From NCBI GenBank assembly GCA_018780365.1, contig JADMJR010000214.1:1-64000 (forward strand): a stretch of DNA of 64,000 bases, read 5' to 3'. Both the position numbers and the translations under genes were made by a program. Under the pieces are notes generated by a model. It did no database searches. It worked only from the letters and a program-made list of their open reading frames with translations, and was not told the origin of the DNA. The stretch is from Acidovorax sp. (GTDB lineage: Bacteria; Pseudomonadota; Gammaproteobacteria; Burkholderiales; Burkholderiaceae_C). Of this stretch, positions 4,919 through 12,179 are shown piece by piece (position 1 is the stretch's first letter; every line of letters starts with the position of its first letter).

Positions 4919-7042
4919 TCAGAACGCCACCTTCACCCCCACCGTCACATTCCGCCCCATCAACGGCGCGGCGTTTTTGATGAAGGAGGTGTGCGCATAC
5001 GCCAGGCGGTCCGTCAGGTTGGTGCCTTTCAGGTACACCTGCCAGGGCGTGCCGCTGCTGAACTGGCCGTTGTAGGCCAGGCCCACATTCAGCATGCCGT
5101 AGCCGGGGGTTGCAGTTTCGAAGGCGGCGATGCGGTTCTGGCGGGCTACCTGCACCCATTCCACCTGGCCTTCCCAGGCGTTCCAGTTCGCATCGAGACG
5201 CAGGCCGGCGCGGGTGGCCGGGATGCGCGGCAGGTTGCCTGCGCCGTCAATCTTGGCTCGCACGGTGTCGCCGAACAGGGTGACGCCCAGGTGGCGCGTG
5301 AGGCGCTGGCGCACCTGGCCTTCGATGCCGGTGAAGGTGGCGTCGGCCTGGCTGTATTGCAGCAGCTGCAGGCCGTCCTGCGCATCGAGCGTGCGGCCGT
5401 AGATGTAGTTGTTGATGCGGTTGCGGAACACGCTCACGCCAAAGGTGGTGTCGCCCGCCGTCTTTTTCAGGCTGAGGTCGAAGTTCTGCGAGGTTTCGGA
5501 GCGCAGGTTGGCGTTGCCGCGCTCGTACGTGCTGGTGGCCATGTGCAGGCCCTGGGCGCACAGCTCTTCGGCCGAGGGGGCGCGGCTGGCGCGGGTGAAG
5601 GATGTGCCGACCTGGTAGCCGGGCGTGAACTTCCAGACCGCGCCCAGCGATGCGGAGGTGCCGTTGTGGCTGCGCTCAATGCCGCTGGTTTCAGCGCGGG
5701 CCGTCTGGCGGTCGTGGCGCAGGGCGGCTTCAAAGCGCCAGTCGCCCAGGCGGTATTCCTCCAGCGCGAAGAAGCCCAGCTTGCGGGTGATGGTGGGCTC
5801 GACATACGCTTCTTCGCCGTCGGCACTGAACTTGCGCTGCGAGGTTTGCAGGCCGACAACCCCCTTGAAGCCACCGATGGGCTCGTGCTGCAACTCGATG
5901 CGGGTGTCGTAGGCCTTGTTCTTGAAGGTGGTGGCGATGGTGCCGCCCTCCACTTCGTCGTGCACGTAGTCCGTCACCCCCGCGCGCAGGCGCAGGGCCG
6001 AGAAGCCGGTGAAGGGGTTGCGCAGCTCGCCCCGGATGTCGAAGCGTTCGCTGCGCAGGTCCACCACCGGGACGTCGCCATGTTCGGCGCCATGGTCATG
6101 GTCGTGGCCGTCTTCTCCTTCGCCTTCGTGGGCGCCGCAGTGCAGATGGTTGCCATGGGTGTGGCAGCCTTCAAAGCTGTGGTTGTGGCCCGGCAGGCCA
6201 TATTTGGCGGCCTGCCGGGTGTAGGCCGCGCCCAGGTACCCACGGTCGCCCACCCACGACAGGCCCACGCTGCCGGTGTGGGTGCGGTTGAAGCTGCCCA
6301 GCACCTTGCGCGTGGCTTCGCCCTCGGGCGCCCAGCCTTTGCCGACGCGGTAGTCACCGGCGTCGCGCGCCACGCCTTCCACGTGCACGGCCAGGTTGCC
6401 GGTGCCGCCGGTGAGCGAGAAGGCCCCTGCCCCTTCGCGCGCGCCGGTGTTGGCACGCAGTTCGGCGCTGCCCTCCAGCCCCTTGGCCGGGACGGCGGTG
6501 GGCACTTTGCCGTCGAGCACGTTGACCACGCCGCCCACGGCGCCGTTGCCATAGATCAGTGCCGAGGGGCCGCGCAGCACTTCGATCTGGGTGGCGAGCA
6601 TGGGCTCGGACACCACGGCGTGGTCGGGGCTGATGGTGGAGGCGTCGTGCAGCTCGGCGCCGTCAGACAGCACCTTGACGCGTGGGCCGTCCATGCCGCG
6701 AATGATGGGGCGGCTGGCTCCGGCGCCAAAGTGGCTGCTGGTGATGCCGGGCTCGCTGTTGAGCGTCTCGCCCAGCGTGGCCTCGCGGCGGCGCACGAGT
6801 TCGTCGCCCTCCAGCACGGTGGCGGGGGTGGTCATGTCATTGGCACCCAGTTGCAGACCGCTGGCGGAGACGGTGACGGACGGCAGGCTGGGTGCGTCGG
6901 ATGGCGCATGGGCCCCGGGCGTGGTCTGCGCTTGGGCAATGCCTGCGCCCGAGAGTGCCAGCATGGCGGCCAGGGCCACGGGGTGCAGGGCGGGACGGCT
7001 GCTGCGGGCGGCAAAACGGAGGGCAAGGGTGGTGTGGGTCAT
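4919..7042 (-). CDS. TonB-dependent receptor, ZnuD-like (zinc uptake)
   Basis: Outer membrane beta-barrel receptor of 707 residues from ATG 7042. A signal peptide ends around AGIAQAQ. The plug follows with IIRGMDGPRVKVLSDG, IEVLRGPSALIYGNGAVGGV and VNVLDG; the barrel ends in VTVGVKVAF with terminal Phe. An extracellular loop at about residues 285-325 is packed with His, Cys and acidic residues (HNHSFEGCHTHGNHLHCGAH, then further HDHDH runs), the hallmark of ZnuD-type zinc receptors. It sits downstream of a Fur/Zur-led operon on the same strand, which fits zinc import. A 206-bp leader plus a dispersed repeat separates it from that operon, so it may have its own promoter. Nickel or heme transport is less likely. 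Confidence 0.87.
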   Translation of the reverse strand: MTHTTLALRFAARSSRPALHPVALAAMLALSGAGIAQAQTTPGAHAPSDAPSLPSVTVSASGLQLGANDMTTPATVLEGDELVRRREATLGETLNSEPGITSSHFGAGASRPIIRGMDGPRVKVLSDGAELHDASTISPDHAVVSEPMLATQIEVLRGPSALIYGNGAVGGVVNVLDGKVPTAVPAKGLEGSAELRANTGAREGAGAFSLTGGTGNLAVHVEGVARDAGDYRVGKGWAPEGEATRKVLGSFNRTHTGSVGLSWVGDRGYLGAAYTRQAAKYGLPGHNHSFEGCHTHGNHLHCGAHEGEGEDGHDHDHGAEHGDVPVVDLRSERFDIRGELRNPFTGFSALRLRAGVTDYVHDEVEGGTIATTFKNKAYDTRIELQHEPIGGFKGVVGLQTSQRKFSADGEEAYVEPTITRKLGFFALEEYRLGDWRFEAALRHDRQTARAETSGIERSHNGTSASLGAVWKFTPGYQVGTSFTRASRAPSAEELCAQGLHMATSTYERGNANLRSETSQNFDLSLKKTAGDTTFGVSVFRNRINNYIYGRTLDAQDGLQLLQYSQADATFTGIEGQVRQRLTRHLGVTLFGDTVRAKIDGAGNLPRIPATRAGLRLDANWNAWEGQVEWVQVARQNRIAAFETATPGYGMLNVGLAYNGQFSSGTPWQVYLKGTNLTDRLAYAHTSFIKNAAPLMGRNVTVGVKVAF

Positions 7043-7349
7043 GGTGGTGGTTGCAACAAGGCATGCGCGGCGTTGGCCCGGTTCGGCCAGACGCGCTCGC
7101 GCACGCGGCACCGCGCCACAGGGCACGGGGTTATGAATAAAAAATGCCTCTAGCGCCTGATAGGCAAGCGCTGATAGCTATGAAATCAGGAGTAATGGGC
7201 GGCACACAGCGGGTGCAGCCCTGTGCACCCCTGCCTCAGCGTGTGCGCAACGGCACAGCACAGGCGCCTGCACGGGCCCGGCCCACACTGCAGGGCAATG
7301 CGGCGGTTGTGCAGAACAGAAGGCGAAGGTTCAGGGATGCCGTGGCGCG
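7043..7349. other. Leader of the TonB receptor gene
   Basis: This 307-bp gap contains dispersed repeat copy 2 (7135-7192). An 8-bp palindrome GTTGCAAC at 7050-7057 resembles one half of the candidate Zur site upstream of the regulator gene. I see no gene here. Confidence 0.5.
7135..7192 (+). repeat. Dispersed intergenic repeat, copy 2
   Basis: Reads GAATAAAAAATGCCTCTAGC, then an inner AGGCAAGCGCTGATAGCTAT and ends in GAAATC. Same family as the copies at 2881, 10103, 26303, 31091, 36668, 42865, 44823 and 60680. It lies between the TonB receptor gene and the upstream membrane-protein gene. Confidence 0.75.
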
Positions 7350-7844
7350 TCAGGCCGCTGGCGGGCCGCGCGCCTGGAACAGCGCAACATGTGAAGCCCC
7401 ACGGCGCCCCGCCAGGGGCGTGGGCGCTGCCTGTGGTGGCACGGCTTCGGGCAGCACCAGGGGGGTGCTGTGCAAGGCATCGCCCAGCGCCAGCTGGTCG
7501 AGCAACAGGCAATCCACCGGGGCATGGTGGGCCAAAAACAGCGGGGAGGCCTCCCCCACCGCTTCGGCCGATGCCGGGAGTGATGGCGATGGCAGCCCCA
7601 AGGCCTGCTGCCCGGCATGCACCCGGTCCAGCGCGCCGCCGTGGGCCACCTGGTGCAGCCGCCCCAGCGTGGGCACCACCACCAGGGCCAGCAGCAGCCA
7701 GACCAGGGCCATGCGCTGCGCCACCCGCGCCTGCAGGCTGCGTGCCGCCCCGCGCCAGGGCGCGCCCTGCCCTGCGCTGCGCAAGGCGTCAGGCAGCGTG
7801 GGCCAGAGCGGGTGGGAGGGGCGGGTCACGAACAATGAAACCAA
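7350..7844 (-). CDS. Small membrane-anchored protein of the zinc block (DUF2946-like)
   Basis: 164 residues with one strong hydrophobic segment at about residues 45-62 (MALVWLLLALVVVPTLGRLH), followed by a stretch with HQVAHG, HHAPVDCLLLDQLALGDALH and a C-terminal ARGPPAA. The His spread, the DC-LLD motif and the ARGPP ending recall DUF2946 proteins, which are found beside metal transport genes. That assignment is tentative. It lies 46 bp after the DUF3299 gene in the same direction and is probably co-transcribed. Function unknown. Confidence 0.6.
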   Translation of the reverse strand: MVSLFVTRPSHPLWPTLPDALRSAGQGAPWRGAARSLQARVAQRMALVWLLLALVVVPTLGRLHQVAHGGALDRVHAGQQALGLPSPSLPASAEAVGEASPLFLAHHAPVDCLLLDQLALGDALHSTPLVLPEAVPPQAAPTPLAGRRGASHVALFQARGPPAA

Positions 7845-7890: not shown

Positions 7891-8520
7891 TTATTTCACT
7901 GGCACCGCGTCCACCACGCGGTAGTACAGGCCATATTGGTCGTTGGTGAGTACGGTGAACTTGCCCTCTACCACCACGGGCTCCAGCGAGTAGCGCACGG
8001 GGGTTTTGGCCTTCACCTCGACCATGCTCTCCGGCCCGCCTGGCAGGCAGAACGAGCAGGTCAGCGGCACGGACGTGAGCAAGAAGTGTGTCTGCGTGGC
8101 CTTGGCGTCCAGCGGCATCATGAAGCCCTGGATGCGCTGCACGGTTTTGTCCATGCCCTTCTGGGCGTCGCTGAACACGGGCAGGATGCCGTCTTTGGTG
8201 GTTTTTTTGGTCAGGTCGGTCAGCACCGACCACGGGATCACGTCGTTGCGCTGGGGCAGCGGCGCGATGGGGCTGTTGGGGCTGTGGTAGCCAGCGCCCG
8301 AGCCCGATGGCACGGCAGTGCCCGTGCCCGCAGGCAGCGGCGACGAGAGCACCGGCGCTGCGGCCGCCCCCTCTTTGGCACGCTCAAAAGCGCCCGGTGC
8401 GGGTTTGGTGGCGATGCCATGCTGGGCCTGCGCGCCGCCAGCCAGTACCAGTGCGGCCGCCATGCCGGCAAAACGAAGCGTTCGGCCGTGGGCGGGGAGA
8501 GGGGTCAGGGCATGGGGCAT
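7891..8520 (-). CDS. DUF3299 exported protein of the zinc block
   Basis: 209 residues with an N-terminal signal peptide (hydrophobic core LRFAGMAAALVLAGGAQA, residues about 15-32), a Pro/Ala/Ser-rich linker and a C-terminal DUF3299 domain recognisable by GFMMPLDAKATQTHFLLTSV and the CSFCLPGGPES motif with two Cys. Family members are periplasmic and usually encoded beside a MacB-like ABC permease/ATPase pair, as here. The role is unknown; the conserved CxxC-like pair suggests metal handling, which is inference. Gap of 42 bp to the upstream small Cys/His gene. Confidence 0.82.
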   Translation of the reverse strand: MPHALTPLPAHGRTLRFAGMAAALVLAGGAQAQHGIATKPAPGAFERAKEGAAAAPVLSSPLPAGTGTAVPSGSGAGYHSPNSPIAPLPQRNDVIPWSVLTDLTKKTTKDGILPVFSDAQKGMDKTVQRIQGFMMPLDAKATQTHFLLTSVPLTCSFCLPGGPESMVEVKAKTPVRYSLEPVVVEGKFTVLTNDQYGLYYRVVDAVPVK

Positions 8521-8562: not shown

Positions 8563-8814
8563 TCAGTGCGCGTGTTTCATGCCGCAGTATTTTCCGATAG
8601 CCAGGCTTTTGCAGGCGGCCTGCAGGTCTTTCTGGCACTGGTCGTGGCCCTTGCCAGACTCCAGGCATTTGGCGGCGGCCTCATGCGCGGCGGCCATGGC
8701 GCGGTGGCGGGCGATGTCCTCCTTGGTGTCCTTGTCGTTGTGGGCCTGGGCGTGGGCCAGGGCTCCGACGAGGAGCATGGGGGCCAGGGCGAGAGCGGTG
8801 AGGAGCTTTTTCAT
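8563..8814 (-). CDS. Small exported Cys/His protein of the zinc block
   Basis: 83 residues. MKKLLTALALAPMLLVGALA is a standard signal peptide. The mature part, about 60 residues, holds four Cys (50, 60, 68, 77) and His at 25, 37, 44, 58, 81 and 83, ending KYCGMKHAH. The spacing would suit two disulfides or a metal site. I do not recognise a named family. Its place between an ABC permease and a DUF3299 gene, in an operon led by a Fur/Zur regulator, suggests a periplasmic metal-binding partner of the transporter. That is inference. Confidence 0.72.
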   Translation of the reverse strand: MKKLLTALALAPMLLVGALAHAQAHNDKDTKEDIARHRAMAAAHEAAAKCLESGKGHDQCQKDLQAACKSLAIGKYCGMKHAH

Positions 8815-10110: not shown

Positions 10111-10155
10111 AGCTACTCGCGCCCTTCTGTTGCGCGGTAGGCCGCTATTTCATTC
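10103..10155 (-). repeat. Dispersed repeat, copy 3, spanning an operon junction
   Basis: Read on the minus strand: GAATGAAATAGCGGCCTACC, then GCGCAACAGAAGGGCGCGAG and TAGCTATGAAAAA. It encodes the last residues of the ATPase, its TAG stop codon and the ATG of the permease. The repeat thus forms the translational junction between two genes of the operon. Confidence 0.7.
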
Positions 10156-10790
10156 AAATCCAGCGTCTGCGCACCGGCCAGGGCCGACACCACACGCTGG
10201 TCGTGCGTGGCAATGATCAGGCTGGCATCGCAGGCGGCGGCGCTGCGCTGCAGCAGTGCCAGCGCATCCGCGGCAGCTTCGTCGTCCAGGCTGGCCGTGG
10301 GCTCGTCGGCCAGCAGCACCTGCGGCGCCAGCAGCACGGCCCGCGCCAGCGCCACACGCTGCGCCTGCCCGCCCGAAAGCTGGTGTGGCTTGCGCGTCGC
10401 CAGCTCGGCCACGCCCACCTGCGCCAGCGCACGCTGGATGGCCGCATCGTCGCGCGGCAGCCCGGCCGCAAAGTAGACCAGCGCCAGGTTGTCGGCCACC
10501 GAAAGCGCGCTGCTGAGGTACAGCTTCTGCGGCAGAAAACCAATGTTGCGCGCGCGCCAGGCATCGATCTCGGCCCCGCGCTGCGTGCCCAGCTGGGTGC
10601 CTGCCACAAACAGGTCGCCCCCGCTGGCACCGCGCAGCCCCGCCATCAGCGCCAGCCAGGTGGACTTGCCGGTGCCCGAGCGCCCGCGCAGCAGCAGCGT
10701 GCCCCCCTGGCGCAGGTCTACATCGGGGAAACGCAGCGGCGCGGCGCCGCCCGTGGCATAGGTGTATGAAAGGCCCCGGGTGCGGATCAT
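10113..10790 (-). CDS. ABC transporter ATP-binding protein (MacB/LolD type)
   Basis: 225-residue ATPase that powers the FtsX-type permease encoded next. Walker A is GRSGTGKST (about residues 35-43), the ABC signature is LSGGQAQR (about 138-145), Walker B is VLLADEPTASLDD (about 157-169) and the switch His is in IIATHDQRV. ATG 10790 overlaps the regulator stop in an ATGA tetranucleotide, indicating coupling with the Zur gene. The last 14 codons and the stop lie in dispersed repeat copy 3, so its C terminus (NEIAAYRATEGRE) is repeat-derived. The ATPase class is the one used by MacB and LolD. Confidence 0.92.
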   Translation of the reverse strand: MIRTRGLSYTYATGGAAPLRFPDVDLRQGGTLLLRGRSGTGKSTWLALMAGLRGASGGDLFVAGTQLGTQRGAEIDAWRARNIGFLPQKLYLSSALSVADNLALVYFAAGLPRDDAAIQRALAQVGVAELATRKPHQLSGGQAQRVALARAVLLAPQVLLADEPTASLDDEAAADALALLQRSAAACDASLIIATHDQRVVSALAGAQTLDLNEIAAYRATEGRE

Positions 10791-11269
10791 GCGGCGGCAC
10801 CTTCGGCCGGGTGGGCGCACTCCGCACACCGCCCGTGCACGGCAATGTCCACCGCCAGGCGCTCGTGCCCGGCCGTGGCCAGTGCCTGCAGCATCTGCTT
10901 GAGGGCGCTCTGCACCTTGGCCGAGCCCTGCGACAGGCGGAACTGGCGGTGGCAGTCGTCGCATTCAAAGCGGGGGGCGGCGCCCTCTTCGCCCTGGGGC
11001 GCCCGTGCGTAACGGGTGACGCGGGCGGCATCGACCTGCTTGTGCAGCAGGCCGGCGGCAGCAAAACGGTCGAGCATGCGGTACACGGTGACCTTGTTGA
11101 CGGGGGCGCCAGCCATGGCGAGGGCGGCCTCGACTTCGGGTTCGGAGAGTGCTGCGTCGGGGCGCGCTTCATAGAGCGCCGCCAGCGCCCGGGTGGCACG
11201 GGTGGCGCGCATGCCGGGTGGAAGTGACCAAGGCGGGTGGTATGGGGACGAGGGGGCGGAGGTGGGCAT
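10787..11269 (-). CDS. zur: Fur-family metal regulator, probable Zur
   Basis: 160 residues. A winged-helix N-terminal domain (recognition stretch NKVTVYRMLDRFAAAGLLHK, about residues 58-77) is followed by a dimerisation domain with two CxxC pairs (FECDDC and GRCAEC), the structural zinc site of Fur-family proteins. It leads an operon of ABC transporter, Cys/His protein and DUF3299 genes that ends in a His-rich ZnuD-like receptor, so Zur fits better than Fur or PerR. ATG 11269 was chosen because the longer frame from 11317 would run through an inverted repeat (11299-11319) that looks like its own operator. Confidence 0.82.
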   Translation of the reverse strand: MPTSAPSSPYHPPWSLPPGMRATRATRALAALYEARPDAALSEPEVEAALAMAGAPVNKVTVYRMLDRFAAAGLLHKQVDAARVTRYARAPQGEEGAAPRFECDDCHRQFRLSQGSAKVQSALKQMLQALATAGHERLAVDIAVHGRCAECAHPAEGAAA

Positions 11270-11298: not shown

Positions 11299-11319
11299 TA
11301 ACGCAATCGGGTTGCATTA
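11299..11319. promoter_or_regulatory. Inverted repeat, candidate Zur operator
   Basis: A 21-bp imperfect dyad: left arm TAACGCAATC, central G, right arm GGTTGCATTA, matching at 8 of 10 positions. It sits 30 bp upstream of the regulator start. Length and AT-rich ends are in the range of Fur-family boxes. Assignment to Zur is inferred from position only. Confidence 0.55.
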
Positions 11320-11374: not shown

Positions 11375-11869
11375 TCACCCCTTGCTTGAACTCAACCGCA
11401 GCATCAGCGTCATCGGCTGCAGCGGCGACGGCTGAAACCCGTAGTGCTCGTAGAACTGTTTGGCAGAGTCATTCAGCGCGTGGACCCACAGCGCCCGCAC
11501 TCCCGCGTTGTGCGCAACCGCGACGGCCCTGTTCACCGCGTCCTGGAGCAGTCCGGCACCTAACTTGATGCCCTGGGCGCGGTGGTCCACAGCGAGTCGC
11601 GCCAGCACCATCACCGGAATCGGGTCCGGCATGTTGCGCCGCACGTTGCTGATAGCCATCTGGTGCGACACCGCGCCGGCCGCCATGGCGTAGTAGCCGA
11701 ACACGCGCCCTTCCGGATCGGTGACAACAAATGTGCGGCTGGCTCCACTGAGGTGATTGGCCCTGGCGCGGCGCTTGAGCCATTCATCGAGACTGGGCTC
11801 CCCGCACGCAAACTGATCCAGCTGATGGTGTGTGGCCAGCGGTTGTGGTGCAGCCAGCTGCAAATTCAT
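11375..11869 (-). CDS. GNAT acetyltransferase toxin, TacT-like
   Basis: 164-residue GNAT enzyme. TacT-type toxins acetylate the amino group of charged tRNAs and so block translation. The acetyl-CoA loop is visible as RAQGIKLGAGLL (residues 97-108) and the catalytic Tyr in QFYEHYGF (Tyr140), the same number as the catalytic Tyr I recall in TacT. The N-terminal FACGEPSLDEWLKRRARANH is also typical. ATG 11869 overlaps the stop of the upstream DUF1778 antitoxin as ATGA, so that start is preferred over 11887. Confidence 0.85.
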   Translation of the reverse strand: MNLQLAAPQPLATHHQLDQFACGEPSLDEWLKRRARANHLSGASRTFVVTDPEGRVFGYYAMAAGAVSHQMAISNVRRNMPDPIPVMVLARLAVDHRAQGIKLGAGLLQDAVNRAVAVAHNAGVRALWVHALNDSAKQFYEHYGFQPSPLQPMTLMLRLSSSKG

Positions 11870-12138
11870 GCCGCGTCCGTACTCCACGGCGCCTTGACGG
11901 CCATGAGGCGTTCCAACCCCGGGTTGGCTGCAGGGGGGGCGTCCAGCATGGCGGTAAATTGCTGGAACCTGTCGGCATCCAGGCTGAAGAAGACCTGGTC
12001 CAGCACCACGGCTTGCGCGCGGTCGCAGGCGGCTTCAAGCATGAAGTCGGAGCGGTTCTTGCCGAGCAGGCTGGCAGCGTGGTCGATCAGGTCACGTTGC
12101 TCAGGCAGGGCCCGCAGGTTGATGGCGGCATCACGCAT
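11866..12138 (-). CDS. DUF1778 antitoxin, TacA-like
   Basis: 90-residue antitoxin with an N-terminal ribbon-helix-helix (MRDAAINLRALPEQRDLIDH, then AASLLGKNRSDFMLEAACDRA), the standard DUF1778/TacA arrangement, and a C-terminal toxin-binding tail. ATG 12138 has a strong GGAGG ribosome-binding site 7 bases upstream. The frame extends further up, but those codons carry the candidate operator. It probably represses its own promoter together with the toxin (see 12154-12179). Confidence 0.87.
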   Translation of the reverse strand: MRDAAINLRALPEQRDLIDHAASLLGKNRSDFMLEAACDRAQAVVLDQVFFSLDADRFQQFTAMLDAPPAANPGLERLMAVKAPWSTDAA

Positions 12139-12153
12139 AACAAGCCTCCGTTG

Positions 12154-12179
12154 TGTGTACGTTAGATACACAAATTATA
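12154..12179 (-). promoter_or_regulatory. Promoter -10 box and inverted-repeat operator of tacA-tacT
   Basis: On the minus strand a TATAAT hexamer (12174-12179) is followed by TGTGTA, 7 bases, then TACACA (12154-12172), a perfect 6-bp dyad just downstream of the -10. This is where a ribbon-helix-helix antitoxin would block transcription. A TTGACA occurs upstream but 26 bases away, too far for a normal -35. Confidence 0.5.

Follow-up and report, generated by a model that had tools for sequence, protein, structure and literature searches.

A conserved four-cysteine, predicted periplasmic protein in a putative Zur-controlled zinc operon of Acidovorax

Results

The stretch of Acidovorax DNA analysed here (the window; 64,000 nucleotides) carries a minus-strand operon in the order zur (a Fur-family regulator), ATPase, MacB/FtsX-type permease, four-Cys gene, DUF3299 gene, one-helix protein and ZnuD-type receptor. 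The features are as follows.

11299..11319, no strand: palindromic operator TAACGCAATCGGGTTGCATTA (TAAYGCAA-N5-TTGCRTTA), putative Zur box, before zur
10787..11269, minus: Fur-family regulator, putative Zur, head of the operon; likely start 11269 or 11212
10113..10790, minus: ABC ATPase (ZrgC/PA4064 counterpart), PF00005
8875..10110, minus: MacB/FtsX-type permease (ZrgB/PA4065 counterpart), PF02687 and PF12704
8563..8814, minus: four-Cys protein gene, ATG start, 83 aa; predicted signal peptide 1-22/24, predicted helices 27-52 and 57-69, CGMKHAH tail
7891..8520, minus: DUF3299 periplasmic protein (ZrgE/PA4066 counterpart), PF11736 at 25.2 bits (cut-off 22)
7350..7844, minus: one-helix protein (one predicted membrane helix, H/C-LLDQ segment), an ORF that recurs in related loci
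4919..7126, minus: ZnuD-type TonB-dependent receptor with a His-rich loop, NF038289 at 680.6 bits (E 3e-204), below that model's strict cut-off of 950

The start codon of the ATPase gene overlaps the stop codon of zur (ATGA). The regulator ORF as listed extends to 11317, but that position lies inside the operator, which makes a start there unlikely and 11269 or 11212 the likely choices. The DUF3299 profile matches PDB 4hsp, the PA4066 structure, with E 5e-6; a CxFC motif (PPxCxFCxPGGP) is invariant in the aligned DUF3299 proteins of the window's clade. The one-helix protein gave no Pfam match; it has a conserved DCxLLDQ-like segment and, by position only, is possibly the counterpart of ZrgD. 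The His-rich loop of the receptor also contains Cys (HNHSFEGCHTHGNHLHCGAHEGEGEDGHDHDHGAEH). Upstream of the operon, a GNAT acetyltransferase and a TacA-like antitoxin (a TacAT-type toxin-antitoxin pair, 11375-12171) are inserted between zur and msrA, which are adjacent in some relatives.

The operator was found de novo by reading the regions upstream of the regulator in relatives. Of 57 testable related loci, 55 carry it immediately upstream of the regulator, with close to none expected by chance. It occurs once in the window, and with up to two mismatches allowed this remains the only site in the 4.6-Mb assembly. It differs from the E. coli-type Zur box (TGTTATANTATAACA), for which no credible site was found. 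Its designation as a putative Zur box comes from the content of the operon, the regulator's own profile match being weak (Pfam FUR 21.6 bits, just below cut-off; weak NCBIfam Irr and Zur matches). That the operator is unique in the genome suggests that this operon is the main zinc-starvation response of these bacteria.

The four-Cys ORF is a translated gene, because differences among 79 homologues concentrate at the third codon positions of its frame (596, 470 and 1658 changes at positions 1, 2 and 3 of the mature part). Cleavage of the signal peptide after residue 22 or 24, judged by eye only, leaves a mature protein of 59-61 residues ending in KYCGMKHAH, in agreement with the original prediction of 60 residues and this tail. 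Its cysteines are residues 50, 60, 68 and 77, and the mature part has His at 25, 37, 44, 57, 81 and 83. All four Cys are invariant in 98 distinct homologues, and so are Asp33, His37, His44 and His83; His25 and His81 are each kept in 97, and His57 in 46. The earlier description of a four-Cys, six-His protein thus holds for the cysteines and for the six histidines present here; since His57 varies while the others are kept, the family is better called a conserved four-Cys, five-His protein. One search of contigs used HRAMAAAH- and AAKCLESG-like patterns, so that among its hits some of the constancy of His37, His44 and Cys50 follows from the search itself; the homologues from genome searches and the plasmid copy described below are free of this bias.

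No Pfam or NCBIfam model matched the protein at cut-off, nor did any Pfam model match across 50 homologues. Sub-threshold Pfam matches to Conotoxin and DUF6488 were attributed to the signal peptide and to a generic spacing of cysteines, and a search for phage copies found none. The four-Cys protein represents an unnamed, strictly conserved family linked to zinc starvation.

AlphaFold2 predicts an all-helical hairpin, with helices at 27-52 and 57-69 (core pLDDT 90-95) and a loose tail of low confidence (pLDDT about 55). Neither a sequence-profile nor a predicted-fold search of the PDB returned anything for it. Our reasoning on helical geometry would place Asp33, His37, Met40 and His44 on one face of helix 1, and would turn Cys60, Leu64 and Cys68 towards that helix, an arrangement compatible with disulfides 50-60 and 68-77. 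Because the invariant cysteines are even in number and the predicted location is the oxidising periplasm, we favour disulfides for the cysteines and His/Asp for metal; the cysteines may therefore not be metal ligands. A twin CX9C (CHCH) hairpin was considered and rejected, since here the CX9C spans the turn between the helices, the second spacing is CX8C, and Cys77 lies in the tail.

The four-Cys gene is present in 46 of 101 relatives and in 54 of 201 family genomes. The permease lies directly upstream in 71 of 80 named loci (median gap 34 bp) and the DUF3299 gene downstream in 68 of 76, so that the order noted in the original prediction, between permease and DUF3299 gene, is the usual one. 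ZnuD is present in 53 of 69 four-Cys loci. In a small number of genomes from other families of Burkholderiales the gene likewise lies between permease and DUF3299, and some of these loci also contain Zur and COG0523 GTPases.

This co-occurrence, which had been proposed as a check, is clear at the level of loci, but some genomes are discordant: 8 of 54 have the four-Cys gene without a permease of this clade, several of them beside ZnuD, and 17 of 63 with this permease clade are without the gene. The protein is therefore not obligatory. In the loci read, nothing obvious took its slot. In one genome (G092, L140:7024-7287) a different small secreted protein with His and two Cys, PepSY-like by eye, lies between permease and DUF3299. 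One locus (L080) retains just the regulator and the four-Cys gene, and another (L069) has the same pair at a contig end. A further genome (G607, L186:5592-6026) encodes a tandem two-domain version a few kb from the ABC operon, with the His-containing tail kept in the second repeat only.

On Polaromonas plasmids (L197:3276-7305 and L198) the gene belongs to a cassette that also encodes a binding protein of the AztC/ZnuA type (PF01297, 276 bits) and a ZnuD-like receptor; about 600 bp upstream lie two sites resembling the operator. The cassette adjoins toxin-antitoxin genes, and no permease or ATPase was found by it within the stretches read. The plasmid copy does not keep Asp33, His25 or His83. 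Persistence of the gene without the ABC operon, plasmids included, indicates that its recurrent partners are zinc acquisition genes in general, ZnuD foremost. The proposal that the protein is dedicated to this ABC system is consequently too strict and not supported in that form: where the permease is lacking the gene is still found, in most cases next to ZnuD, and on plasmids it lies between the AztC/ZnuA-type binding protein and the ZnuD-like receptor; the ABC operon also occurs without the gene.

The same distribution bears on two other readings. The protein could bind no metal and act as a structural or assembly partner, locked by disulfides, of the permease/DUF3299 complex, its conserved His and Met making protein contacts. 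The even number of invariant cysteines, the hairpin fold and the tight coupling to permease and DUF3299 would fit this; we nevertheless regard it as unlikely, because the gene is kept beside ZnuD where permease or DUF3299 is lacking, in the company of Zur only, and with the AztC/ZnuA-type plasmid protein. Alternatively, it could be a thiol-redox partner of the DUF3299 protein, whose CxFC is invariant, or of MsrA, which is nearby in many genomes and adjacent in standalone loci. This seems to us extremely improbable: the CxFC is kept in the DUF3299 proteins of nearly all loci without the four-Cys gene, and MsrA, a chromosomal neighbour absent from the plasmid cassette, was judged a positional rather than a functional partner.

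The operon resembles Vibrio ZrgABCDE (PMC9820375, PMC9817125) and Pseudomonas aeruginosa PA4063-PA4066 (PMC8561739, PMC11481552) in having an ABC ATPase and a four-helix MacB-like permease as separate genes, a DUF3299 (ZrgE) protein and an extra periplasmic metal-type protein; Zur control may be a further point in common. It differs from them in that ZnuD and zur lie within the operon, the permease belongs to a separate clade, and an unrelated 60-residue four-Cys helical protein replaces ZrgA (PF10986), the proposed zinc-binding protein of ZrgBC (PMC9820375). ZrgA is also absent from the rest of the genome, in an assembly about 85% complete. Like ZrgA/PA4063, the four-Cys protein is predicted to be secreted, contains His and sits beside the zrgB, zrgC and zrgE counterparts, its role in the operon being assigned by position. 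ZrgA and PA4063, however, have a ferredoxin-like fold with His-rich loops, whereas the four-Cys protein is a predicted helical hairpin with four invariant cysteines. Membership of the ZrgA family was rejected: neither the protein nor 50 homologues match PF10986, and the predicted all-helical fold is not ferredoxin-like alpha/beta.

Among 201 family genomes, ZrgA occurs in 34, the four-Cys protein in 54 and both in none (hypergeometric p 7e-6, uncorrected for kinship), an exclusion that tracks permease clade and is not phylogenetically independent. In a tree of 64 permeases, the 12 linked to ZrgA fall in one clade and the rest in another, both with 100/100 support; within the second clade the four-Cys gene is broadly present, with several losses. 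Given two separate permease clades, any 'replacement' of ZrgA is an alternative at the level of the clade and does not reflect a recent exchange. The permeases of both clades have three invariant His in common, in keeping with shared metal handling.

The plasmid cassette invites comparison with the AztC-AztD and ZnuA-ZinT pairs, in which a small accessory likewise accompanies a cluster A-I zinc-binding protein, but the four-Cys protein is much smaller than AztD or ZinT and has no family match in the libraries searched. It is not itself a cluster A-I binding protein of the ZnuA/AztC kind (PF01297, two-domain, about 300 residues), having 83 aa and no match. HvfA/bufferin RiPP metallophores (NF050188) are also small, secreted, Cys-containing and metal-associated; this assignment was discarded on a score of 13.6 bits against a cut-off of 95, with no modifying (MNIO) enzyme among the operon genes identified.

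ZnuA was absent from 34 of the 37 genus genomes searched; in 48, a clear ZnuB was found in only 4 and ZIP transporters in 47. Nearly all genomes of the genus Acidovorax (G001-G047), single-contig ones included, appear to be without ZnuABC. With ZnuA and ZnuB mostly absent from the genus, other zinc carriers are needed. A literature search on an Acidovorax zinc system found nothing relevant.

Discussion

The zinc link of the four-Cys protein, which the original prediction had proposed, is strong. At the locus it is borne out by the zur gene and operator with which the operon begins, by ZnuD, which closes it, and by a Zrg/PA4063-PA4066-type ABC transporter between them; it is strengthened by the exclusion with ZrgA and by the lack of ZnuA and ZnuB in nearly all Acidovorax genomes searched. 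A role in zinc homeostasis is, in our estimate, very probable.

Judging from sequence and gene context, we think it probable that the protein, under Zur control, carries zinc in the periplasm and stands in ZrgA's place, between ZnuD and inner-membrane acceptors; 'carrier' should be read here as a plausible role. In a Zrg-type operon for zinc acquisition that has no ZrgA, the protein would serve as metallochaperone or as a minimal binding protein. It would be exported to the periplasm and there form two disulfides, of which the simplest arrangement is 50-60 across the turn of the hairpin and 68-77 holding the tail in place. A labile zinc site could be built from one face of a helix (Asp33, His37 and His44) and the tail residues His81 and His83. 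Zinc arriving through ZnuD would be taken by the protein and handed on, either to the Zrg complex of the inner membrane or, in its absence, to a different acceptor.

A related idea is that the protein buffers periplasmic zinc (or cobalt or copper) against metal surges when ZnuD is induced, and delivers nothing. It is small, contains His, Met and Cys, and accompanies ZnuD more widely than the ABC genes do. The operator, however, groups the gene with starvation genes, and no resistance genes were found in the neighbourhoods seen; a buffer is in our view decidedly unlikely.

Whether Zrg-type complexes import or export is contested: one account is of zinc import, ZrgA being the binding protein (PMC9820375), the other of pyochelin-cobalt export (PMC11481552). 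It counts against a carrier that the entire operon may serve export. PA4064-PA4065 has been modelled as an exporter of the MacB type and tied to pyochelin-cobalt, with PA4065 deletion data (PMC11481552). Also counting against a carrier are the 17 genomes that have this permease clade but not the gene, the low-confidence prediction of the tail, the residues lost from the plasmid copy and the phylogenetic dependence of the exclusion with ZrgA. By analogy with this proposal for the PA4063-PA4066 operon, and given the MacB/FtsX-type permease here, the four-Cys protein might be an accessory of a metallophore exporter. The gene exists without the exporter, though, and no metallophore biosynthesis or pyochelin genes were found in the loci examined; we consider an exporter accessory very unlikely.

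Returning to the zinc carrier, a broader form of the proposal can be put forward tentatively, as a possibility we rate below an even chance. The family may constitute a new class of periplasmic zinc relay, in which a disulfide-locked 60-residue helical hairpin connects ZnuD-type receptors to different inner-membrane acceptors (a Zrg-type ABC complex, an AztC/ZnuA-type binding protein, or others). Throughout one permease clade it would have taken over from ZrgA, and bacteria without ZnuABC would have it as their principal high-affinity zinc carrier.

Two questions are at stake: the route of zinc from ZnuD to the inner membrane, and import versus export by the Zrg and PA4063-PA4066 systems. Because most Acidovorax genomes are without ZnuABC, this operon is a clean place for testing both. 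The four-Cys family also offers a testable role for many entries now annotated 'hypothetical protein'.
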